A DNA stretch of 46,285 nucleotides from a virus. Made by a program: the position numbers and the translations under genes. Numbering within the stretch: position 1 is the stretch's first letter; each line of letters opens with the position of its first letter. Under the pieces are notes generated by a model that ran no database searches, was not told where the DNA came from, and was given only the letters and a program-made list of their open reading frames with translations. Below, piece after piece: positions 2,165 through 40,804 of the stretch. The stretch covers positions 1 to 46,285 of the IMG/VR virus record IMGVR_UViG_3300047493_000096, one strand, 5' to 3'.

Positions 2165-3403
2165 ATGGACAAGTTTGCTCAACGTAGGAGTATTTTAAAT
2201 AAATTACGAGAGAAAGTAAATATTCCTGGTGCTACTTTAGAGAATTTTTTTAAGCCAGAGTTAGATCGTATTATGAAAGATTTGCGATTAACAGATGATA
2301 ATATTAGAACTATTTTAATGGGGCAAAAAGTTGGAGATGCAGACGTGCAATTTTCACCTGGTCGTTCGGCTAAAGAGTTATTAAAATCAGCTCATAGTAA
2401 TTTTAATAGAAGAGAATATATTAAGGGAGTGGCAGATTTAGGTGAATTTCATAAAAGACTACATGACTGCGCTTTATTTACTGACAAATTAAAAATGAGT
2501 GTAGATAAGATTCATCATAACTTTTTATTTCAAAACTTAGAAGATAAAGATAAGAGTCAAATTAAAAATCTTAGAGATTATATGTCTAAGAAATCTCAAT
2601 TAGAGGCTACATTAATTAAGAGAGCTGGAAGTTTTTCAGATGTTTTTGATTTTTTTCATAATATTAAAACTCAAAGAGGTAGGGCATTAGCGGCTTGGGA
2701 GAAGAAATATCCTAAGGTTGTGGCTGATCTTAGAGATGGTGGTAATAGAGTTTTACAGTTAGCTGATAATGCTTTGGCTGGAACTTTACAATTACTTAAA
2801 GGAATGGCAACGGCTAGAGCAATCAGAAGTGTTGATGAGTATATGGGATTAGCTTCTCAATTAAAGAATGAATATGTCAAGTTTGATGCTGGAGATAAGG
2901 GATTTAGTGGTTATTACAATAAAGTAATTCTTCCTTATTTACAGAAACAAGAAGAAATTGAGCAAGATTCACAAACCTCAACTCCAGTGTCTGCGCCAGA
3001 GGTAAATATTTCTACTCCTACAAAAGATCCAACTTCAAATGAAATTAAATCACCATTAACACTTGAAATGCCAGATCTTAAATCTGAAGAAATAAAACCT
3101 ATCACATCAAATCCATCTTCAAATAAAGTTAAATCACCATTAACACTTGAAATGCCAACCACATCGGAAGCTTGGTTTAATACTCCTGAAGAAATAAAAC
3201 CATCCAAACCTGTTGAAACGGTTGGTCCTGAAACGGGAGAGGTAATTAGACACGCTAAGTTTTATGCTTCTTTAAAAAAATTAGGTGGAGAATCTCCTTA
3301 TATTTTGAAAAGTTATATTACTAAATATGCTAAATCTATTGAACACTTTGATTTAGCTACTGCTATTAAGTTATTAAATATTGTCAAAAATATTAGGGGT
3401 TAA
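2165..3403 (+). CDS. Head-module protein of unknown function with repeated linker
   Basis: 412 residues, not recognised. Residues 1-275 are charged and helix-rich (for example the region around YIKGVADLGEFHKRLHD). Residues 280-350 form a low-complexity Pro/Ser/Thr/Glu linker containing two near-identical copies of SPLTLEMP. A short helical C-terminal domain begins near residue 355 (HAKFYASLKKLGGESPY). It lies between portal and transglycosylase, with the next ATG only 2 bases after its stop, so it is probably a late virion or assembly protein. The two globular ends joined by a flexible linker suggest a bridging or internal head protein, but that is inference. Confidence 0.7.
   Translation: MDKFAQRRSILNKLREKVNIPGATLENFFKPELDRIMKDLRLTDDNIRTILMGQKVGDADVQFSPGRSAKELLKSAHSNFNRREYIKGVADLGEFHKRLHDCALFTDKLKMSVDKIHHNFLFQNLEDKDKSQIKNLRDYMSKKSQLEATLIKRAGSFSDVFDFFHNIKTQRGRALAAWEKKYPKVVADLRDGGNRVLQLADNALAGTLQLLKGMATARAIRSVDEYMGLASQLKNEYVKFDAGDKGFSGYYNKVILPYLQKQEEIEQDSQTSTPVSAPEVNISTPTKDPTSNEIKSPLTLEMPDLKSEEIKPITSNPSSNKVKSPLTLEMPTTSEAWFNTPEEIKPSKPVETVGPETGEVIRHAKFYASLKKLGGESPYILKSYITKYAKSIEHFDLATAIKLLNIVKNIRG
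3034..3157 (+). repeat. Two 40-base direct repeats inside the linker
   Basis: Positions 3034-3073 and 3118-3157 are nearly identical (an AAATCACCATTAACACTTGA core), spaced 84 bases, that is 28 codons. A second shorter pair (GAAGAAATAAAACC) follows each copy. This looks like a recent in-frame duplication lengthening the linker. Confidence 0.85.
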
Positions 3404-3405
3404 TT

Positions 3406-4560
3406 ATGGCTAATTTAGGAGCCGGATTTTATCCAAAGTTATTACAAATGACTTCTGAACTTGGAATGAGTCCAGAGGATTTGTTAGCGACAATGGTATC
3501 AGAATCTGGAATAGATCCATCTGCTCATAATCCAAAAGGAGCTTCTGGTTTGATTCAATTTATGCCACCTTCTTTAAAGGGAGTTGGGTATAAAGGAACT
3601 CCAGAAGAGTTTAGACAAACTTCTGGAGAAGAGCAGTTGCAATATATTAAAAGATATATTCAAGATAAAATGAAATATAATGGGGGACCATTTAAATCAG
3701 CAGCTCAATATTATGTAGCTAACTTTTGGCCTGTTGCTTTAAAATTACCAGGAATTCAGAATCAAGATCCTAATACAGTAATTGTTTCAGGACATCCTGA
3801 AAGAGATGCTTCTGGTAAATGGAGTAAGAAATATTTAGATATTGGCACTAAGATTTCGGCTGATTTTGAAGCTTTAGCATATCGTGGTAATACATTGTTT
3901 GATAAAAATAAAAAAGGATATATTACTTATGGAGATATGATCACTCAAACAGATCAAAATAAGAGAAATCCTATTTATCAAAAAGCATTAGCAGAATTAA
4001 AAAAATCTACCAATTATGTTGCTCAAGATAAACCAAGTTCTACAAGGTTGCCACCATCAGAAAAACAAATAAGTAATTATACTAAATCTAAGCCTAAAAA
4101 TAAATCTTGGTTAGAATCATTGGAAGCATTATTAGATAAATATGTCTCAATGTTTTCTAATGCTGAAAATATTTCATTAAAGAGATTATACAAGCAAGCA
4201 TTACCAGAACATAATATTTTAATACAAGTTAAGTCTCCTGATTATAACAGTAAAATAGAATTTGCTAGGATTTTAACATCAGCTTTAGATGAAGAAGTAT
4301 TATCTACTTCATATACATATGTGGATGGTTTTGAAGATGTAGAAGTAGAATGTAAAATTAATGGACCATATTCAGAATGTTTTGGAGCAGTAAGAGAATT
4401 TTCTTTGGTATTAGCAGAAGAGTTTTTCAATGCTACCAAAAAAATTGGAGGTATTCCAATTAAATTAAACTTTATTATGAATAAAAAATCATCTTTACAG
4501 GCAATTAGCTTAAAGACAGCAGAAACAAATTACAGACACTTCTTACTAAGATTAAGGTAA
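3406..4560 (+). CDS. Virion lytic transglycosylase (SLT-like) with C-terminal virion domain
   Basis: 384 residues. The N-terminal 165 residues form an SLT/goose-lysozyme-type fold: catalytic Glu33 in MVSESGIDPSA, then NPKGASGLIQFMP, the standard ES and GLxQFMP motifs of lytic transglycosylases that cleave peptidoglycan glycan strands. A linker (about 205-250) leads to a C-terminal domain (about 255-384) beginning with LKRLYKQA and containing VEFAR-like and CxxGPxxxC-like segments, which I do not recognise by name. No signal peptide is visible, consistent with a virion-borne enzyme acting during entry rather than a secreted endolysin. It starts 2 bases after the preceding stop. Confidence 0.85.
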   Translation: MANLGAGFYPKLLQMTSELGMSPEDLLATMVSESGIDPSAHNPKGASGLIQFMPPSLKGVGYKGTPEEFRQTSGEEQLQYIKRYIQDKMKYNGGPFKSAAQYYVANFWPVALKLPGIQNQDPNTVIVSGHPERDASGKWSKKYLDIGTKISADFEALAYRGNTLFDKNKKGYITYGDMITQTDQNKRNPIYQKALAELKKSTNYVAQDKPSSTRLPPSEKQISNYTKSKPKNKSWLESLEALLDKYVSMFSNAENISLKRLYKQALPEHNILIQVKSPDYNSKIEFARILTSALDEEVLSTSYTYVDGFEDVEVECKINGPYSECFGAVREFSLVLAEEFFNATKKIGGIPIKLNFIMNKKSSLQAISLKTAETNYRHFLLRLR

Positions 4561-10958: not shown

Positions 10959-11642
10959 ATGAAAAATCAAAGTGTATCAGATTTTGTCGCCTCATCAATG
11001 GATGCGGTTCTAAACAGCAAACAACATCAGGATTTATTTGCTTCTCAATATAAAAAAGCAGAAGCTGGTTGTTCGGGATGTGGTAAAGATAAAGATAATT
11101 GTTCTTGTGATTCATCTATGGCAGATGACAATGACGCTCGTAAAAAAGCTAAATGTCCAGAATGTGAAGAAGTGAAATCAGAATGTAAATGTGATTCTGC
11201 TTCAGCCGATAATAATGATGCTCGCAAGAAAGCTGAAAAATGTCCGGGTTGCAACAAACTAAAGAACTTCTGTGATTGTGATTCGGCTTCAGCTGATGAT
11301 CTTGAAGCTTCTGCAGCATTTGATGTAGCGATTGATAGTTTGCTTACCGCTTCTGCAGCTTTAGATTCAGTTGGTCTTGATCGTGGTTCAGTTCTAACTC
11401 TTAAAATGGCTTCATTAGTTGTCCAGGCTAAGAAAAAAGAACAGAAGAAAAACTCTGACAAAGATAAGAGTGCAAAAGATAAGCAAATGGCTAAAGACAA
11501 AATGGCTAAAGAAAAAGCTATGAAAGAAAAAGCCAAGATGAAAGAAAAAGAAGAAAAAGAGAAAGCCAAAGAAAAGGCTGACAAAGAAAAAGCTAAAGAA
11601 AAAGCGGCTAAAGAAAAGGCTATGCAAAAAAAAAGTAAGTAA
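10959..11642 (+). CDS. Cys-cluster and Lys-rich virion-module protein (5' part of an interrupted gene)
   Basis: 227 residues as read. Residues 35-115 contain three copies of CxxC-x6-9-CxC (CSGCGKDKDNCSCD, CPECEEVKSECKCD, CPGCNKLKNFCDCD) joined by a repeated Ser-Ala-Asp-Asp-Asn-Asp-Ala-Arg-Lys-Lys-Ala linker; each could bind zinc. Residues 118-155 are a small helical hairpin, and 160-227 an extreme Lys/Glu/Ala/Met single-helix tail. The stop at 11640-11642 comes just after a run of nine A (11626-11634). With eight A the frame continues into 11635-11808, and beyond the transposon remnant to 12095, giving a 323-residue protein. So this ORF is probably truncated, or read through by slippage. RBS AAGGAA precedes ATG 10959. 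Confidence 0.75.
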   Translation: MKNQSVSDFVASSMDAVLNSKQHQDLFASQYKKAEAGCSGCGKDKDNCSCDSSMADDNDARKKAKCPECEEVKSECKCDSASADNNDARKKAEKCPGCNKLKNFCDCDSASADDLEASAAFDVAIDSLLTASAALDSVGLDRGSVLTLKMASLVVQAKKKEQKKNSDKDKSAKDKQMAKDKMAKEKAMKEKAKMKEKEEKEKAKEKADKEKAKEKAAKEKAMQKKSK

Positions 11643-12095
11643 AGCTTCTTTTGATGATGATAATCCATATCTTGGCGACGATCCTGCTTATGATGATTTT
11701 GAAAAAGAATTACCTTTTGAAAAAAGAAATCCTTCAGACCATCATGAGCAGTTAAACAGACTTCGTTCTGCTCGTAATAAATTAAGAAAAGAATATCATG
11801 ATTTTTATAGCAGGAAACCCATGACTTTAGTCATGGGAGGAATGCGTCCTAAGAAAATTAACTAATTATTAGTAAATCTACCAATAATCAACAGAGGGCT
11901 TTAGTCAATAAGCCTATTGTAGCCAAGAAGATTTGAGCCGCAAGCCAATGACTTCAGTCATTGGTGATTGACGATATGTCAGCAAATGCTAAAACTTATG
12001 AAGAAAAAGATTTAATAGAAAAAGAATATGATAAACAAGATCAAAAACTTGAAGATTATATAACTTTAATGTTAAATCCTGGTTCAGTTAATTAA
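11635..12095 (+). pseudogene. Downstream part of the Cys/Lys-rich gene, split by a miniature transposon
   Basis: In the frame entered by losing one A from the A9 run, 11635-11808 encodes a segment beginning VSKASFDDDNPYLGDDPAYD and ending KEYHDFY. The reading is then broken by the element at 11809-11972. Joining 11808 directly to 11973 keeps the frame: HDFY-DMSANAKTYEEKDLIEKE and on to TAA 12093-12095. The acidic, helical composition is like neighbouring virion genes. Two independent lesions (A9 and insertion) now separate it from its 5' part; alternatively the A9 difference is a sequencing error or a slippage site. Confidence 0.75.
11809..11972 (+). mobile_element. Miniature IS200/IS605-type element, copy 1 (164 bp)
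   Basis: The left end carries a perfect hairpin at 11818-11837 (CCCATGAC-TTTA-GTCATGGG) and the right end one at 11945-11964 (CCAATGAC-TTCA-GTCATTGG), the subterminal palindromes typical of IS200/IS605-family elements. It lies immediately 3' of TTTAT, a plausible family target site, and there is no target duplication. The inside matches copy 2 at both ends and keeps only the last codons of tnpB (QQRALVNKPIVAKKI). Removing 11809-11972 restores an open frame. Such elements move by TnpA acting in trans on hairpin ends; no tnpA is present here. Confidence 0.85.
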
Positions 12096-12104
12096 TAGGA
12101 AATA

Positions 12105-12320
12105 ATGTTTAAAACATTTAGTTCAGAAAACGAAATATATAAGAATATGGAAAGTAAGCTTGTTCAAAGCCAGGTTGAAAAACAACACGGTTTTGACAAG
12201 CTTGCTAAAGCCACTGAATTATTAAATAAGGCTGCAATTATTTTTGAAAATGCTAAAATGTATGCTGAAGCAGAAGAAATTACTAATGTTATTTCTGCAT
12301 TAATTCAAGGTAGTAAATGA
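12105..12320 (+). CDS. Small helical protein, unknown
   Basis: 71 residues, two helices. The C-terminal 40 residues (ATELLNKAAIIFENAKMYAE and on) resemble a helical hairpin in the next protein (AAEYLHSALEIFEDLGLQKN), suggesting a TPR-like or paralogous hairpin. RBS TAGGAAATA precedes ATG. Its stop overlaps the next start (ATGA). Confidence 0.65.
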   Translation: MFKTFSSENEIYKNMESKLVQSQVEKQHGFDKLAKATELLNKAAIIFENAKMYAEAEEITNVISALIQGSK

Positions 12321-12937
12321 AATATGATATTTTTGCAGCAATGGAAAAAGAAATTGTTAAAAATGCTAAAGTTCCTAATTTAGTTGAAGCCGCAGAGTAT
12401 TTGCATAGTGCATTAGAAATCTTTGAAGATTTAGGCTTGCAAAAAAACGCAGATCAAGTATTAGAGATATTATATAAAATAGCTAAAAATAACAAATTTG
12501 CTCAAACTAAAGCAAAACCATTACAAGAACTTCTTCCAATTAAGAAATTAATGGAAGCAGGATTAACACAAAAAGATATGAATGAGTTTGCTAAAGGAAA
12601 TCCAGTAGCTAAAGCAAAAATAAACCTTGTAATGAAAGGTTTAGGTATTTCAGATCACGAAATTGCAAAGTTTATTGGTTTTAATAATGTTATGTCAGAA
12701 GAAGACGCCCATAAACTACTTGATCCAAATAGAGCATTAGGTAAAATAAATCATTGGATTGAAGAAGCCAAACAAGAAATTAAACCAGGAAATGTAGTAG
12801 AATTTAAAAGTGTTTCTAAAAAACCACTTCAATATGATATAGATAATGCAGATGATTTAGATGTTGAGTTTAATGATTCATTAGAAGTTTTTGACAAAGA
12901 AATACCGTTAGAAGATTTTGAAGATGAAAAGTTTTGA
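12317..12937 (+). CDS. Helical virion-module protein, unknown
   Basis: 206 residues. Residues 20-55 are a helical hairpin related to the preceding 71-residue protein; IVKNAK and LYKIAKNNKFAQ are Lys-Ala stretches like those of neighbouring virion proteins. The middle (60-160) is helical and the C-terminus acidic. Coupled to the upstream gene by ATGA. The last 109 bases overlap antisense with the 3' end of a minus-strand endonuclease relic, so the endonuclease inserted very close to this gene's end. Confidence 0.65.
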   Translation: MKYDIFAAMEKEIVKNAKVPNLVEAAEYLHSALEIFEDLGLQKNADQVLEILYKIAKNNKFAQTKAKPLQELLPIKKLMEAGLTQKDMNEFAKGNPVAKAKINLVMKGLGISDHEIAKFIGFNNVMSEEDAHKLLDPNRALGKINHWIEEAKQEIKPGNVVEFKSVSKKPLQYDIDNADDLDVEFNDSLEVFDKEIPLEDFEDEKF

Positions 12938-13018
12938 AATTCTAAATATTTAGAATGTTTTCGAGTTAAATAAATAGTAGCATCGCAATATAACCAGTCT
13001 AAAAGTTTTCTTGTTTGT

Positions 13019-13055
13019 AAATTACCACCCACAGAAATGCTGGTGGTAATTTTAT
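13019..13055 (+). terminator. Probable terminator after the head operon
   Basis: ATTACCACC and GGTGGTAAT form a 9-bp stem followed by TTTTATTTT on the plus strand. It lies within the minus-strand endonuclease relic's coding part, so it may be partly coincidental. Confidence 0.45.
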
Positions 13056-13070
13056 TTTCATGATTTTTAT

Positions 13071-13444
13071 AGCAGGAAACCCATGACTTTAGTCATGGGA
13101 GGAATGCGTCCTAAGAAAATTAACTAATTATTAGTAAAAACTATCAATAAGACAATATATATTTGATTATGTTGCTTACCACTTCTATTAAACTACTTAC
13201 CGAGCCAGATCAGAAGAAAAGCTGTGGTTTTTGTTCTAAAAACAACAGAATAACACAATCAGAGTTTAAGTGTAAAAAGTGTAAGTTTCAAATTAATGCT
13301 GATTACAATGCTGCAATAAACATATCAAGAAAAGCAGTAATTAAACAGAATCAGCAGAATCAACAGAGGGCTTTAGTCAATAAGCCTATTGTAGCCAAGA
13401 AGATTTGAGCCGCAAGCCAATGACTTCAGTCATTGGTGATTGAC
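13071..13444 (+). mobile_element. Miniature IS200/IS605-type element, copy 2 (374 bp)
   Basis: Same ends as copy 1: left hairpin 13080-13099, right hairpin 13417-13436, inserted 3' of TTTAT, ending GATTGAC. The shared left flank extends back to TCATGATTTTTAT, 13 bases before the element, so the two sites are related or one copy came from the other. It retains about 70 codons of the 3' end of tnpB; copy 1 is the same element with a further internal deletion. Excision in silico restores a LAGLIDADG gene on the opposite strand. Confidence 0.85.
13163..13408 (+). pseudogene. tnpB: TnpB C-terminal remnant
   Basis: The 81-residue frame has the TnpB zinc ribbon (CGFC...CKKC) and the end of the RuvC domain (NADYNAAINI, with the third catalytic Asp of the family), then a Gln/Lys tail. 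Full TnpB is about 400 residues; RuvC-I, RuvC-II and the DNA-binding domain are missing, so it cannot cut DNA. The tnpB 3' end and right end, which in full elements encode the omega RNA scaffold, are retained. Confidence 0.85.
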
Positions 13445-14072
13445 ATGTGTAAGTAGAAACATTAATACCAAAGTTATTAATAATATCTTTAACTGATTGA
13501 CAAAATTGGTTGGTAGAAGTGATTTTCCAAATATAATTGTTATTATTTTTGTAAATACTACCATCTCCATCCATATAACCTCTAATAAAATGATTAAGTA
13601 AATGATTAGGAATATTTGGAAACTGTAAAATTAAAGATTTATTAGGAACACATCCTAAATTAATTAATTGTTGGCATATTTCTTGACGACATATTCGCAA
13701 ATAAGAATATTTAGTAGAAATTTTAATAGGAGAGTCTGGAGATAAGTAATTTCTTAATTGTTCAATAATATGTTGATCATTTGATTTTAGTTTTAAAGTC
13801 ATTGAATATTTATTGTTTTTAATTTGAACGCATCCATCAGCAAATAATAATCCTAAAAAATATGCATTGGCTTCATTATTAATGTGTTTAAAAAACTCAA
13901 GATTAATATTAGGATAGATAATATTTTTACCAATTCTGGTAGTAGAGTATTTTCTTAAGATATTAGAAATATTAGTTTGACAACATCCAAAATATAAAGC
14001 AATTTGTTTTTGAGATTGTTTAGATTGATATAGGGAAATAGCCAAATTAATTTGTTTGGGACTTAAAATCAT

Positions 14073-14084
14073 AACACACATATA
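14073..14084 (-). promoter_or_regulatory. Predicted leaderless promoter of the split LAGLIDADG gene
   Basis: Minus strand CG-T-TATATG-TGTGTT-ATG: a -10-like hexamer, exactly 6 bases, then ATG 14072. No Shine-Dalgarno sequence is present. The same spacing occurs at three other genes in the window. Confidence 0.5.
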
Positions 14085-14881: not shown

Positions 14882-15748
14882 ATGAGAAAACACGAAAAAT
14901 TATATAGATTTACACTTGCGCAAGAAACAATAATTATAGAATTATATTTAAATCAAAAATTAAGTATTAATAAAATTTCAAAATTATATAATGTTGATCG
15001 GGATACAATTACACGATTATTAAAAAGAAATAATATAGAATTATTTCCATTAGGTAGTCATATTCGTAAGTATCCATTAAATGAAACATACTTTGATAAT
15101 ATAGATTCAGAAGAAAAGGCTTATTTTCTTGGGTTTTTATATGCTGACGGTTGTAATCATACTAATGATTATTCTAGAAAGAAAATTGATATTTCTTTAC
15201 AAGAAGAAGATAAAAATATATTGATTAAGTTTTCAAAAATGTTATATGATAATAATGAATTTTTATCTTACGTTATTGGTAGAAATAAAAATAAACCTCA
15301 ATGGTGTTTAAGGGTTCATAGTAAATATTTATCAGATAAATTAAGTGAATTAGGATGTGTATCAAGAAAAAGTCTTATTTTAACTTTTCCAGAATGGTTG
15401 ATTGATCCGGTTTTACAAAGACATTTTATTAGAGGATATTTTGATGGGGATGGATGTCTTACCAGAAGTAAAAGAAGAAAAATATATGATTATGCTTGGA
15501 GTATAACTTCTACTGAAAGTTTTTGTAATAAAATAAAAGATATAATTAATAATAATTGTAATGTTAATTTTAGAGATAATTTTACTTGTCCCAACAATAA
15601 TATAACACATACTATTTCTGTCAGAGGTTATCATCAAATACTTAGAGTATCTAATTGGTTATATAAGGACGCAACTATTTATTTAGATCGTAAATATCAA
15701 AAATATTTAGAACTAAAACAAGGTAATAATATACCGTTAATTTTATGA
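14882..15748 (+). CDS. LAGLIDADG homing endonuclease
   Basis: 288 residues. N-terminal HTH (NKISKLYNVDRDTITRLLKR), then the two LAGLIDADG motifs AYFLGFLYADG and HFIRGYFDGDG, whose acidic residues bind the catalytic metals, and a C-terminal segment NWLYKDATIYLDRKYQKYLE. It is a close relative of the split gene at 12829-14072, sharing ITSTxxFCxxxKDIINN. It begins 26 bases after the preceding stop with a TATAAT box at 14864-14869 and GAAAG as ribosome site. Appears intact. Confidence 0.9.
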   Translation: MRKHEKLYRFTLAQETIIIELYLNQKLSINKISKLYNVDRDTITRLLKRNNIELFPLGSHIRKYPLNETYFDNIDSEEKAYFLGFLYADGCNHTNDYSRKKIDISLQEEDKNILIKFSKMLYDNNEFLSYVIGRNKNKPQWCLRVHSKYLSDKLSELGCVSRKSLILTFPEWLIDPVLQRHFIRGYFDGDGCLTRSKRRKIYDYAWSITSTESFCNKIKDIINNNCNVNFRDNFTCPNNNITHTISVRGYHQILRVSNWLYKDATIYLDRKYQKYLELKQGNNIPLIL

Positions 15749-23104: not shown

Positions 23105-24205
23105 TTATATCTTGTTAATTTTATTTCTCTGAAAATCTTGAACTCTCTTTATCCAGATATAAAAATCTAATAAAGAAAGTTTGCTTTTGCCAAAATTACA
23201 CCACTGACAGCATGGGATGCAATTATCTATAGTATGTCCTTGTAAATTATCTATTCTATCAATTCCATTATAATAAAAATATGCTTCATCTTTTGCTTTT
23301 TGTGATGCTCTTTTATCTTTTAAATAAACATTGCACATATTAGATTTCTCAATTCCACAATAATAACAGGGTAATTGAGAATATGTATAAAATGTTGGTA
23401 AATCAATTTCCATTTTACCATAATTTTTTGTATAATATTTATAAGCTATTTTTATAGAAACTAATAAATAATTTTTAGGTAATTCCAATAAGTTAAAATT
23501 AAAATTATATTTTCCTAATGATTCAATATATTTATTAAAATCTATTTCACTTCTTTGTTTTTTCGCTCTATTACAGATAAAACAACAGGTATTAATATTA
23601 TTAATTAAATATCCTAATTTGCTGTCAATTCTATCTAATCCATTATATAAAAATCCTTTATAATTATTATATTTTTCAATTCCACAATAATGACATGGCA
23701 ATTGTGTTAAACTAAACCAATCATCAAAAGATAATTTACAATCTCGTTTATTATATGAACGCCATACTTTTCTTGCAGCGGCAATTGTTTTACTGTATTT
23801 AGTATTAGTTATTAAAGATATTTTTTGATTAATTAATATTTTTTCTTTTTTCAAACACCCACAAGATTTAGTATTATTTGAAATTAAATGATGAGTTAAA
23901 ACAGTAGTTTTTTCTCCACATTCACATAAACAATCCCAATATCCTTTATTGTAAGAAATAGTAATTAATCTATTAAATTGTTGTCCAGCTTTAATAGCCA
24001 TACCATTATTTTCTATAATACATCCACAAGATTTTTGCTGATTAGAGGTTAAAGTTCCAGTTCTTACTATTATTATTTTGCCACATTCACATCTACAATT
24101 CCAAGCCGTAAACGATCTACCTTTGTTTTTTGCTTCTAAATTAAAAGCCGATGAAATTACTGTTAGTTTGCCAAAAACTAAACCAACTAAGTTTTTTTTA
24201 TTCAT
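23105..24205 (-). CDS. HNH homing endonuclease with duplicated zinc-ribbon and HNH domains
   Basis: 366 residues from ATG 24205. The N-terminal half has two copies of a Cys-rich DNA-binding module: NLVGLVFGKLTVI...WNCRCECGK...QKSCGC and AGQQFNRLITISY...WDCLCECGE...TKSCGC. The C-terminal half has two HNH-like blocks, each CxYCGIEK ... YNGxDRID ... CCxxCNxxK. So both halves are duplicated, unusual for enzymes of this size. It lies between the decoration and capsid genes on the opposite strand. ATG 24205 is preferred to GTG 24223 because a TATATA box lies exactly 6 bases before it and homology starts at NLVG. Confidence 0.85.
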   Translation of the reverse strand: MNKKNLVGLVFGKLTVISSAFNLEAKNKGRSFTAWNCRCECGKIIIVRTGTLTSNQQKSCGCIIENNGMAIKAGQQFNRLITISYNKGYWDCLCECGEKTTVLTHHLISNNTKSCGCLKKEKILINQKISLITNTKYSKTIAAARKVWRSYNKRDCKLSFDDWFSLTQLPCHYCGIEKYNNYKGFLYNGLDRIDSKLGYLINNINTCCFICNRAKKQRSEIDFNKYIESLGKYNFNFNLLELPKNYLLVSIKIAYKYYTKNYGKMEIDLPTFYTYSQLPCYYCGIEKSNMCNVYLKDKRASQKAKDEAYFYYNGIDRIDNLQGHTIDNCIPCCQWCNFGKSKLSLLDFYIWIKRVQDFQRNKINKI

Positions 24206-24217
24206 ATCATATATATA
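24206..24217 (-). promoter_or_regulatory. Predicted leaderless promoter of the HNH gene
   Basis: Minus strand GCGT-TATATA-TATGAT-ATG, again with 6 bases between hexamer and start codon and no Shine-Dalgarno sequence. The CGTTATAT stretch is shared with 14073-14084 and 43113-43124. Confidence 0.5.
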
Positions 24218-24293
24218 ACGCACTATTTTGCTATTTTTATTGTTTTAGTAAAAATAATTAATCTAATATGGTTAATAATAACATATACATTCA

Positions 24294-25458: not shown

Positions 25459-26171
25459 CTACGCCATATCTCTAACATTAGGATCTTTTGCTACTAAAAT
25501 TGCTTTTAAATCTTCATCACCAAAAATAATTTTTTCTTCAATAGAGGATGCTGTTTTTATATAATCAGTTGGTGGAATAGTTTTTCTATGTTGTGTAAAA
25601 TTATATAATTTTTCTAACCAGTCTATAAATTCTTTGGTAGTTCTTTCTCTTTTGGCAAAATTACACCATTTACAACAAGGAATACAATTACTTAAGGTAT
25701 GATTGATAGAACTGTCTATACGATCTAAACCATTATAAATAAAATCACCATAATCTTTAGCAAATTGCGAAGCACTAGGATCAATGGTTGAAGAATTTTG
25801 TTTATTACTGGGTGACTCGCCACAATAATGACAATTTAATTGAGATAATTTATAAAGTTTTCAAATGTCAAATCTCCGTCTTTATATCTTCTTCTCCAAA
25901 TAGTACGGGCAGTTCCTTCTTTTGGAGTATATAGAGTTCCAGATTTTCCCATATTTCTACCATTAATAATACTTTGTTCCCTATTTAAACATCCGCAAGA
26001 TTTAGTATCTCCATTTTTTAAATATTCTGCTGCAAAAATCTTTTGCGTTCCACAAGAACATTGACATAACCAAGCAGATCTTTTCTTTTTAATGCCAATA
26101 TGTGGAGCTTCTGCAATAACAGTTAGTCTTGTAAAAGTTTGACCCATTAAATTTTCTTTTTTATTTGACAT
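25459..26171 (-). pseudogene. HNH homing endonuclease with frameshift
   Basis: The first 111 codons (26171 to 25836) have one Cys-rich DNA-binding module (NLMGQTFTRLTVI ... WLCQCSCGT ... KSCGC) and end FENFINYLN. One missing T on the minus strand near 25854-25856 shifts the frame; adding it gives FENFYKLSQLNCHYCG and continues through YNGLDRID and CIPCCKWCNFAKRE to TAG at 25459-25461, about 237 residues. The HNH half matches the second HNH block of the gene at 23105-24205. AAAGGAAA precedes the start. A sequencing error is possible. Confidence 0.85.
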
Positions 26172-35439: not shown

Positions 35440-36066
35440 TTGTTAGATAAAAAATGTAATACTTGTAATTTAATTAAAACATTAGATAATTTTATTAAAT
35501 GTAAAACTACTAAAGATCAATTAACTGGCGCTTGTAAAAGTTGTATTAATATTTCTAATAGAAAAAGTTATAATAAATATAAAAAAACATATAACTGTAA
35601 ATTATGTAATAATATTTTGTTAAAATTTGGTAAATATTGTGAGCCCTGTTATTTATTATATAGAAAACAATATAGAAAAGATTATGAATATAATAGGCGG
35701 CATAAAGATTTAGAATATAAAATTAAATCAAATATTTCTCGTAGTGTTAGGTCTGCCTTAAAAGCTAAAGGCAAATATTCTGTATTAAAATATTTACCAT
35801 ATACTATAGAAAAGCTAATAACACATATTGAAAGTTTATTTGAATCTTGGATGAGCTGGGATAATTTAGGAGTATATAATAAAAAATATTGGAATGATAA
35901 CGATCAAACAACCTGGAAATGGCAAATAGATCATATTATGCCTCATTCAACTTTTAATTATATAAGTATGGACGATCAGTTATTTATAGATTGTTGGTCA
36001 TTAAAAAATCTTAGACCATTGTCAGCAAAATTAAATATATTAAAAAGTAATAAACTCTTAGGATAA
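35440..36066 (+). CDS. HNH homing endonuclease
   Basis: 208 residues. N-terminal paired Cys zinc ribbon (CNTCNLIK...CKSCI and CKLC...CEPC) and an HNH core WQIDHIMPHSTFNYISMDDQ followed by CWSLKNLRPLSAKLNILKSN, the usual WxIDHIxPxS...NLRPLxxxxNxxK pattern. Start at TTG 35440 is uncertain. The gene ends 6 bases before the promoter-like box of the next HNH gene. Confidence 0.85.
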   Translation: MLDKKCNTCNLIKTLDNFIKCKTTKDQLTGACKSCINISNRKSYNKYKKTYNCKLCNNILLKFGKYCEPCYLLYRKQYRKDYEYNRRHKDLEYKIKSNISRSVRSALKAKGKYSVLKYLPYTIEKLITHIESLFESWMSWDNLGVYNKKYWNDNDQTTWKWQIDHIMPHSTFNYISMDDQLFIDCWSLKNLRPLSAKLNILKSNKLLG

Positions 36067-36083: not shown

Positions 36084-36398
36084 ATGATTAAGTTAATTAA
36101 AGCATATTGTGAAGTGGAATCTTGTGATGTTGTTGATCCTAATTTATTAGAGCTTCACCATCATATTCCGCGAAAAGATATTAACACTACTAATCATCCT
36201 ATGAATATTTGTATTTTATGTTGCACACATCATAAAATGATTGATTCAGGAAGATTAAAAATTATAGGAATATTCCCTTCTACTAAATTACCTAATAAAA
36301 GAACTTTAGTCTATGAATTAGATGGGATTAAGAATATAGATTTAAGTGAACCATATTTTGTATTTACTAACAAATCATATAAGTTAAAGAAGGAATAA
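36084..36398 (+). CDS. Small HNH endonuclease
   Basis: 104 residues. Pattern CxVxxC ... LELHHHIPRK ... NICILCCTHHKMID with paired Cys and the HNH catalytic His. The C-terminus (IIGIFPSTKLPNKRTLVYEL) recurs in similar short phage HNH proteins. Its start codon is placed for a leaderless mRNA. The stop overlaps the next ATG. Confidence 0.85.
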   Translation: MIKLIKAYCEVESCDVVDPNLLELHHHIPRKDINTTNHPMNICILCCTHHKMIDSGRLKIIGIFPSTKLPNKRTLVYELDGIKNIDLSEPYFVFTNKSYKLKKE

Positions 36399-39119: not shown

Positions 39120-40094
39120 TTATTGAGGATTATATAATCCGAATTCCCGCAATCTTCTTTTAATAGTAGGAGCACTTACATTTAGTTTTTCAGCTATCTT
39201 AGAATAAGTCTCTACTGCAGTTCCTTTATATAAAGGAGTTTCTTCTAACATTTTTACTAATAAATCTTTTCTAATAATAATTTTAACTGGTTTAACTTTC
39301 AAAACATCTAATTGAACTTCGTGTTTTCGATCAAGCCAAGTTGTAGCATTCCAGTGTAGCCAGTTAATAATTTTAGTATTATCTTCTAAATTATTACATC
39401 TAATAATGGTTATATCATCTCTCATAATATAATGAGGACTTGTAAAATAATTACTATAATGATCATAAATAGTTTTCATAGCTAAATGAGAGCCGCAAAG
39501 ACCAAAATTAGAATGTCCTTTTTCAAGATATGTCCAACCATCTCCATCAATTAAACCTCTGAAGAAGTGATTAGACAAATGATGTTCAAATATCCAACTT
39601 GGAACATCATAAGTTTTACTTTTTCCTGAAGTAATGCCAAATCTCAATAAATCTTTAACCATTTGAGCGGAGTTAAATCTAATTTTACAATAATCATAGC
39701 TTGATTTTTTAAATTGAGGGCGAGTTTCAGTTCGGGTATAAGTTTTTATTTCGGCAGTGCTTTGGATATCTCTTTGAAACTTGTATAGATGATCTACATC
39801 TTTAATAGCCAATTCTAATTTAATTCTATTACTTTCTTTTTCCACATTACCATCAGCGGCTAAAAATCCCGCCCAATAAAAACTTTGCTCAGTATCTTCT
39901 CCAAAGAAGTTATGATTGCAATCATATTTACCACGTTTTTGATATTCTATATTATTTTCAATACAATATTGTCTTAAAGTTTCTAAGCTTATATTTAATA
40001 TTTCTGATGTTTTATCTAATGTTTTATGTTCTGCATATAAACTTATAATTTTTTGTTTTTGCTCTTCTGTTTGAGGCATTGGTATTCGTTTCAT
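39120..40094 (-). CDS. LAGLIDADG homing endonuclease
   Basis: 324 residues from ATG 40094 (AAAGAAG upstream). N-terminal HTH (LDKTSEILNISLETLRQYCI), LAGLIDADG-type motifs SFYWAGFLAADG and HFFRGLIDGDG, and a C-terminal segment NATTWLDRKHEVQLDVLK, then a second HTH at the end (VETYSKIAEKLNVSAPTIKR). A TGATATAAT box (40150-40158) precedes. Appears intact. Confidence 0.88.
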   Translation of the reverse strand: MKRIPMPQTEEQKQKIISLYAEHKTLDKTSEILNISLETLRQYCIENNIEYQKRGKYDCNHNFFGEDTEQSFYWAGFLAADGNVEKESNRIKLELAIKDVDHLYKFQRDIQSTAEIKTYTRTETRPQFKKSSYDYCKIRFNSAQMVKDLLRFGITSGKSKTYDVPSWIFEHHLSNHFFRGLIDGDGWTYLEKGHSNFGLCGSHLAMKTIYDHYSNYFTSPHYIMRDDITIIRCNNLEDNTKIINWLHWNATTWLDRKHEVQLDVLKVKPVKIIIRKDLLVKMLEETPLYKGTAVETYSKIAEKLNVSAPTIKRRLREFGLYNPQ

Positions 40095-40149
40095 AACTTC
40101 TTTAATTTTAAAAATTAAACTTGTATGCAAAAGTATTTCGCACGTTTGT

Positions 40150-40174: not shown

Positions 40175-40804
40175 TTACTTTTTTATGAATCCGTTAATTT
40201 TTTTTAATTTAGCAGGTTTTAAAGTAGAAAGATATACAATACTTTTTTGCAAGTCAGCATTAATATTAATAATATGATCAATTTGAACTTTTAGCTCTTT
40301 AAACTCTTTTTTAATAATAGCGCTTGACATGAAATCGCTAAGTTTTTTACTATTAATAATTATTTCTTCGGTAATAGAGAATTTAGTAATAATATTTTTA
40401 ATTAATTCACTTAATAAGTCGCCATTATTTGATGTTTCTTTAATTCTTTGTGTAATATTACAACCACAGGATTCTATTAGTTTTTCACGTAATTTGTAAG
40501 TACTAACATTGATATTTTTACCACATTGACATTGACATAACCAAAATCTTCTACTTTTGTCGGCGGTAATAATTAAATTAAGAACTAATAATTTACCGAA
40601 TATTTTGTTGGTAAGATCGGGAGTATGATTACAACCACAGGAAGTAGAATTGCCACCTCTTAAAGAGTTGGAGGTGACTAATTTTTGGATACCACATTCG
40701 CAAATGCAGTTCCATTGTGTTTGTCCATTGGTTTGTTTATTTCCAATATTTTGCACTAACCAAAAGCCAAATCTTTGTCCGGTTAAATCTATTAATTTAC
40801 CCAT
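40175..40804 (-). CDS. Zinc-ribbon endonuclease-type protein without a nuclease domain
   Basis: 209 residues. Two Cys-rich modules: LIDLTGQRFGFWLV...WNCICECG...TSCGC and LTNKIFGKLLVLN...WLCQCQCGK...ESCGC, as in the HNH genes at 23105 and 25459. The C-terminal 70 residues (helical, Lys-rich, ending KKINGFIKK) show no HNH, GIY-YIG or LAGLIDADG motif. It could be a truncated endonuclease or a DNA-binding regulator derived from one. Confidence 0.75.
   Translation of the reverse strand: MGKLIDLTGQRFGFWLVQNIGNKQTNGQTQWNCICECGIQKLVTSNSLRGGNSTSCGCNHTPDLTNKIFGKLLVLNLIITADKSRRFWLCQCQCGKNINVSTYKLREKLIESCGCNITQRIKETSNNGDLLSELIKNIITKFSITEEIIINSKKLSDFMSSAIIKKEFKELKVQIDHIININADLQKSIVYLSTLKPAKLKKINGFIKK

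Follow-up and report, generated by a model that had tools for sequence, protein, structure and literature searches.

Elements of the IS200/IS605 family are moved by TnpA, which cuts out one DNA strand and integrates it 3′ of a short target, leaving no duplication, and elements without tnpA rely on TnpA supplied in trans (PMC8612924). Short derivatives of such elements have been described in Haloquadratum walsbyi as palindrome-associated transposable elements (PATEs), which are transposase-free and have near-terminal palindromes, no ITR and no target duplication; some of them arose from IS605-type elements by deletion of the core, and one, HqIRS71, keeps part of the tnpB C-terminal region (PMC3119063). 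Moreover, mobile elements in Haloquadratum tend to target other mobile elements (PMC3119063). A PATE-like element of ~271 nt in Halanaerobium hydrogeniformans combines the left hairpin and the complete right end with the last 58 nt of tnpB (PMC7290912). The kind of element reported here, a PATE-type IS605 derivative, and each component of its nesting are already known.

The window analysed here is the whole of virus record IMGVR_UViG_3300047493_000096, a genome fragment of 46,285 bases, in which two copies of a repeat were found within ~10.9–15.8 kb, at unrelated sites and in identical orientation (plus strand); a scan of the window yielded no copy beyond these two. Their left blocks (11796–11876 and 13058–13138, 81 nt) and right blocks (11886–11972 and 13358–13444, 87 nt) are 100% identical, while the interiors between the blocks are unequal, with 9 nt in element 1 versus 219 nt in element 2. 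A near-perfect subterminal hairpin stands at each end of both copies, namely CCCATGACTTTAGTCATGGG on the left (11818–11837 in element 1, with the same letters at 13080–13099 in element 2) and CCAATGACTTCAGTCATTGG on the right (11945–11964, with the same letters at 13417–13436), the hairpin motif being expected by chance ~0.01 times per window according to shuffles. Both copies end in the same right cleavage sequence, GATTGAC (11966–11972 and 13438–13444), and a target duplication is absent at both insertions. The copies, their shared hairpins, the GATTGAC end and the lack of duplication had been proposed by a sequence-only reading of this DNA, and all were confirmed, as was the identity of both repeats as real IS200/IS605-derived elements at these places. 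Among the relatives, the right hairpin was followed by GATTGAC or AATTGAC, the former being common to three deltaproteobacterial MAG contigs and the latter ending the elements at L034 and L075.

The left boundary had been drawn at TTTAT, which is probably 6 nt off. As had been claimed, excision of the resulting 164 and 374 nt joins the reading frames at the two sites. However, lengths of 164/374, 170/380 and 173/383 nt all preserve the frame, as does a start of element 1 at 11800, so that the frame alone cannot fix this boundary; likewise, 374, 380 or 383 nt all fit at the second site, as the insertion loop is variable. The shared left block starts 13 nt to the left of the boundary first drawn (TCATGATTTTTAT), and the eight matching bases beyond TTTAT have a chance probability of ~4e−5. 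TTTTAT is therefore most likely repeat sequence and not an independently shared target. TTTAT was rejected as the target, given that a shared flank of 13 nt is improbable by chance and relatives carry other bases there, and excision of the full repeat extended by 13 nt was rejected as well, since stops arise at both sites.

Left ends of relatives were collected with patterns that excluded the target region (L032, L033/L037 and L034), to which two TnpB loci in related phages were added (L074 and L084). TYAYGAY appeared exactly 13 nt before AGCARR in all five of these independent relatives, with a spacer of 6 variable nt and a background of ~7e−4 per position. At L075 the motif TTATGAT lies one base closer to AGCARR than in those five, and variant target motifs were found in three relatives (L035 on a Haladaptatus plasmid, L036 and L080). 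Judging from the TYAYGAY-N6-AGCARR motif, TCATGAT rather than TTTAT is likely to be the target, with putative left cleavage sites at 11796–11802 and 13058–13064. Element 1 would then span 11803–11972 (170 nt) and element 2 13065–13444 (380 nt), and it is in this way that we infer the exact left boundary of both. ISDra2 and IS608 share with these elements the subterminal hairpins, duplication-free insertion 3′ of a short target, TnpB and a right-end RNA, but they are autonomous, with tnpA, and their target is TTGAT or TTAC in place of TCATGAT (PMC8612924).

Several further loci with similar ends were observed. The viral contigs L036 and L037 (both 2340–3710) hold distinct related TnpB elements at an identical site with near-identical flanks, and diverge from the first base after CTATCAT, through either replacement or allelic divergence. 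A Haladaptatus halobius plasmid (L035, 2487–2990) carries a ~500-bp element whose left end is the same and whose right end is TTGAC; this element has no annotated TnpA or TnpB and overlaps a gene annotated as an ABC transporter, at the 3′ end of that gene. On an Aneurinibacillus plasmid (L044), the same left-hairpin motif adjoins an IscB gene, with TTCAC 14 nt upstream of the motif.

Element 2 contains an open reading frame of 79 aa (13169–13408, plus strand), which begins with MLLTTSIKLLTEPDQ and keeps ~15 N-terminal residues, fused in frame to a zinc finger, RuvC-III (NADYN) and the C-terminus (KKSCGFC...NADYNAAINI...ALVNKPIVA). Its C-terminal part matched PF07282 (Cas12f1-like TNB domain, 4e−9) and phage TnpB-type transposase families (phrog_506, 2e−10). 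As its two parts align to opposite ends of the 394-aa TnpB encoded on a 406-kb contig of a related phage, the N-terminal match being weak (0.003), this frame is most likely what an in-frame internal deletion has left of a TnpB gene, and it would lack a functional RuvC core. TnpB coding sequence is absent from element 1. Furthermore, TnpA (Y1 HUH transposase, PF01797) is absent from both copies and from the whole 46-kb record, so both elements are non-autonomous derivatives and not full IS200/IS605 members, and no full TnpB was found within the fragment. Searches for close DNA relatives of the elements returned none from IMG/VR (right-hairpin and scaffold patterns) or INPHARED (blastn), and the exact IS605 parent was not found. 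Desulfobacterota were considered as the host of the parent because right ends are alike in three MAG contigs, but they were rejected as the left end occurred in 0 of 297 genomes.

Both elements resemble the Haloquadratum PATEs in their near-terminal palindromes, the lack of ITR and target duplication and a length too short for a transposase, and element 2, in which the TnpB N-terminus is joined to the C-terminus, also reflects deletion of an IS605 core. They differ in their bacteriophage setting, in having a homing-endonuclease gene as target and in being known from only two copies. The Halanaerobium element is a single chromosomal copy, and element 2 additionally keeps the start of tnpB (PMC7290912). 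As regards the IS200/IS605 family, a hairpin at each end, a conserved target (with a putative boundary) and the lack of duplication were found, together with the TnpB remnant in element 2. The repeats are also hairpin-rich and near gene ends, as might be expected of regulatory hairpins or terminators duplicated by recombination and never mobile; this origin is very improbable in view of the TnpB coding remnant, the canonical IS605 ends common to TnpB-bearing elements elsewhere, and the unbroken homologue of the interrupted gene.

That gene encodes a LAGLIDADG homing endonuclease, to which element 2 is antisense. The frame at 13386–14081 (minus strand) matched PF14528 (9e−14) and phrog_4645 (1.5e−46), its tail being element sequence, so that the N-terminal part of the interrupted gene covers 13445–14081 and the C-terminal part, 71–74% identical to L015 and L025, covers 12829–13064 (both minus strand). 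An intact paralogue, 36% identical, lies nearby at 14882–15748 (plus strand). Related phages were reached through a 1214-aa capsid-region protein, which gave 24 contigs (44–65% identical), several of them of 145–480 kb; relatives of the 206-aa neighbour were also tried as a route to the empty site and yielded nothing. In two of these contigs (L015 and L025) the endonuclease homologue is unbroken and in the same syntenic place, with both neighbour genes present in L025, and after removal of 374 nt from the window the alignment runs without gaps across the insertion point. No such endonuclease was found between the same neighbours in the other relatives for which the region was available. The unbroken homologues are diverged (~52–74% protein identity), and no nucleotide-level allele was found among the relatives. 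Moreover, 94% of the joined endonuclease (a 258-aa query, from the 380-nt version) was covered by matches to staphylococcal phage intron-encoded endonucleases, and its match to the neighbouring 288-aa paralogue runs through the junction (36%, 5e−42). The interrupted gene thus belongs to the phrog_4645/staphylococcal phage LAGLIDADG family, whose members there are intact and intron-encoded, whereas the one described here is free-standing and interrupted. The proposals that element 2 lies inside a LAGLIDADG gene beside a 288-residue relative, that its removal restores the frame and that a transposon is nested in a homing endonuclease gene were accordingly upheld, and the check in related phages suggested for this site turned up uninterrupted, diverged homologues.

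A different fate of the split genes would follow if the elements were IStron-like, with a group I intron removing them from the RNA and leaving the genes functional. C. difficile IStrons have been linked to IS605, and the ends described here resemble an IS605-type element of the C. difficile phage phiCD27. However, there was no Rfam intron match, 170 nt is below group I intron size, and no self-splicing group I intron, which an IStron would carry in the sense orientation of its gene, was found; for element 2, the antisense orientation refutes this reading, which overall is scarcely credible.

The situation at the first site is different. To the left of element 1 lies an open frame without a start codon (11602–11802, plus strand), in the +1 frame relative to the gene at 10959–11642, and the same frame continues on the right (11973–12095, plus strand; DMSANAK...GSVN), stopping just before the next gene. 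Removal of element 1 joins the two into 95 residues, and 95 open codons occurred in none of 2,000 composition shuffles. The joined frame has no ATG, GTG or TTG start codon, and no homologue of it was found in the 24 related contigs, PHROGs or INPHARED; where relatives were checked, no more than ~26 nt separate the end of the upstream gene from the next gene. A conserved gene at this site was consequently rejected. A run of nine A residues lies near the 3′ end of the upstream gene (11626–11634). The simplest reading of the sequence is that the joined frame, shifted by one base at this run, may extend the gene at 10959–11642 C-terminally, which suggests slippage or a sequencing (homopolymer) error. 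The proposal that two genes are restored exactly by excision was supported for the second site, with its frame and syntenic homologue, but for the first only the joining of the frame was, the gene being unproven; the check in related phages gave no homologue here, and the joined frame lacks a start codon and is out of frame with the upstream gene.

A Y1 transposase adjoining TnpB was found in 3 of the 24 related contigs; the three amount to two insertion sites. In the first (L074 in G310, with a near-identical pair in L076 of G315), the element splits an HNH endonuclease gene, whose remainder matches phage HNH endonucleases and the window's own frame at 35440 (45%). In the second (L075 in G325), it splits another HNH gene (phrog_2255), and removal of the element at its predicted ends, after TTATGAT and after TTGAC, leaves one continuous HNH frame. 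Counting element 2, IS605-type elements have thus entered endonuclease genes three times independently in this phage group. The G310/G315 and G325 elements share with those of the window the phage group, the left site (TTACGAT/TTATGAT) and the insertion in an endonuclease gene, but they have TnpA, a full TnpB and other hairpin sequences, and are not the direct parent. A rule that IS605 elements always enter endonuclease genes was rejected, as most TnpB-only elements in the 406-kb contig (G316) look intergenic, and tolerance is a simpler cause than strict target preference: insertions in endonuclease genes survive because these genes are dispensable. The same 406-kb contig (L017) shows six TnpB-family matches, one of them on a 616-aa open frame. 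As for the window itself, free-standing endonuclease-like genes are abundant in it besides those at 13386 and 14882, with a LAGLIDADG gene at 39120–40130 and HNH-like genes at 35440–36066 and 36084–36398, and there are CxCG-type frames without family match at 23105–24223, 25836–26171 and 40175–40804.

Building on the observed anatomy, the identity of the copies, the TnpB remnant, the unbroken syntenic endonuclease homologue and the TnpA and TnpB relatives in the phage group, we consider it very probable that both repeats are PATE-type IS200/IS605 derivatives of a TnpB-bearing parent, mobilized by TnpA in trans, element 2 truncating a LAGLIDADG gene. Internal deletion of the parent would have given rise to non-autonomous miniature elements. 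A Y1 HUH TnpA, from another phage-borne element or from the host, would recognize both subterminal hairpins and cut the element out as a single strand between the end of TCATGAT and the end of GATTGAC, to be inserted 3′ of another TCATGAT without target duplication. In this way, element 1 would have entered the uncharacterised frame that follows the gene at 10959, and element 2 the homing-endonuclease gene, which precise excision would restore. Mobilization in trans and any present-day mobility are presumed here rather than shown. The identity of 168 nt between two unrelated sites leads us to infer that transposition was recent.

Alternatively, the copies could be the dead remains of older, full IS605 insertions, each of which decayed in situ through its own internal deletions and was never mobile as a miniature. 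Full TnpA and TnpB or TnpB-only elements do exist in related phages, and the interiors differ, so that the deletions may be independent. However, the 168 identical nt at unrelated sites imply a very recent common origin, and two large deletions would have been needed before any point change, which makes such decay rather unlikely, though it deserves some weight.

The identity of the right ends also bears on a possible function. By analogy with the position of the reRNA in ISDra2 (PMC8612924), the conserved right end (11886–11972, also 13358–13444; plus strand) might represent the 3′ portion of the reRNA/omegaRNA scaffold of a TnpB. If the elements were under selection as guide RNAs, this RNA would direct a TnpB encoded elsewhere to cut the empty site, after which recombination would restore the element, and it may in addition interfere with the intact homing endonucleases of co-infecting phages. 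In line with this, the 87-nt right end is identical in both copies while the interiors differ, abuts the right flank that would act as guide, and folds better than shuffles (z = −2.96); related phages have full TnpBs, and ISDra2 provides the TnpB/reRNA logic (PMC8612924). On the other hand, recent transposition would equally produce identical ends, the reRNA of ISDra2 measures ~150 nt whereas element 1 keeps only the last 87 nt and the left end, the 46-kb fragment holds no full TnpB, and viral contigs yielded no close relative of the scaffold. Selection as guide RNAs is thus improbable, and it is slightly less probable still that the right-end RNA of element 2, with TnpB in trans, carries a guide matching the intact homing-endonuclease gene. 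If that were true, a phage with the disrupted allele would cut the intact endonuclease gene of its rivals in mixed infections and turn it into the disrupted form, so that homing would be countered under RNA guidance.

Under the preferred reading, that of PATE-type derivatives moved by TnpA in trans, these elements add to the known systems a phage setting, a homing-endonuclease target for which an unbroken syntenic homologue exists, and the TYAYGAY site. This motif offers a testable target in viral contigs for elements of IS605 type, and a haloarchaeal plasmid carries a variant of it, TCATAAT. IS605-derived miniatures are hereby documented in a large-phage lineage, where one of them disables a homing endonuclease, a selfish element breaking another. 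In phages, homing-endonuclease genes appear to be places where IS605 elements can insert safely, and a selfish element can put an end to the homing of another.
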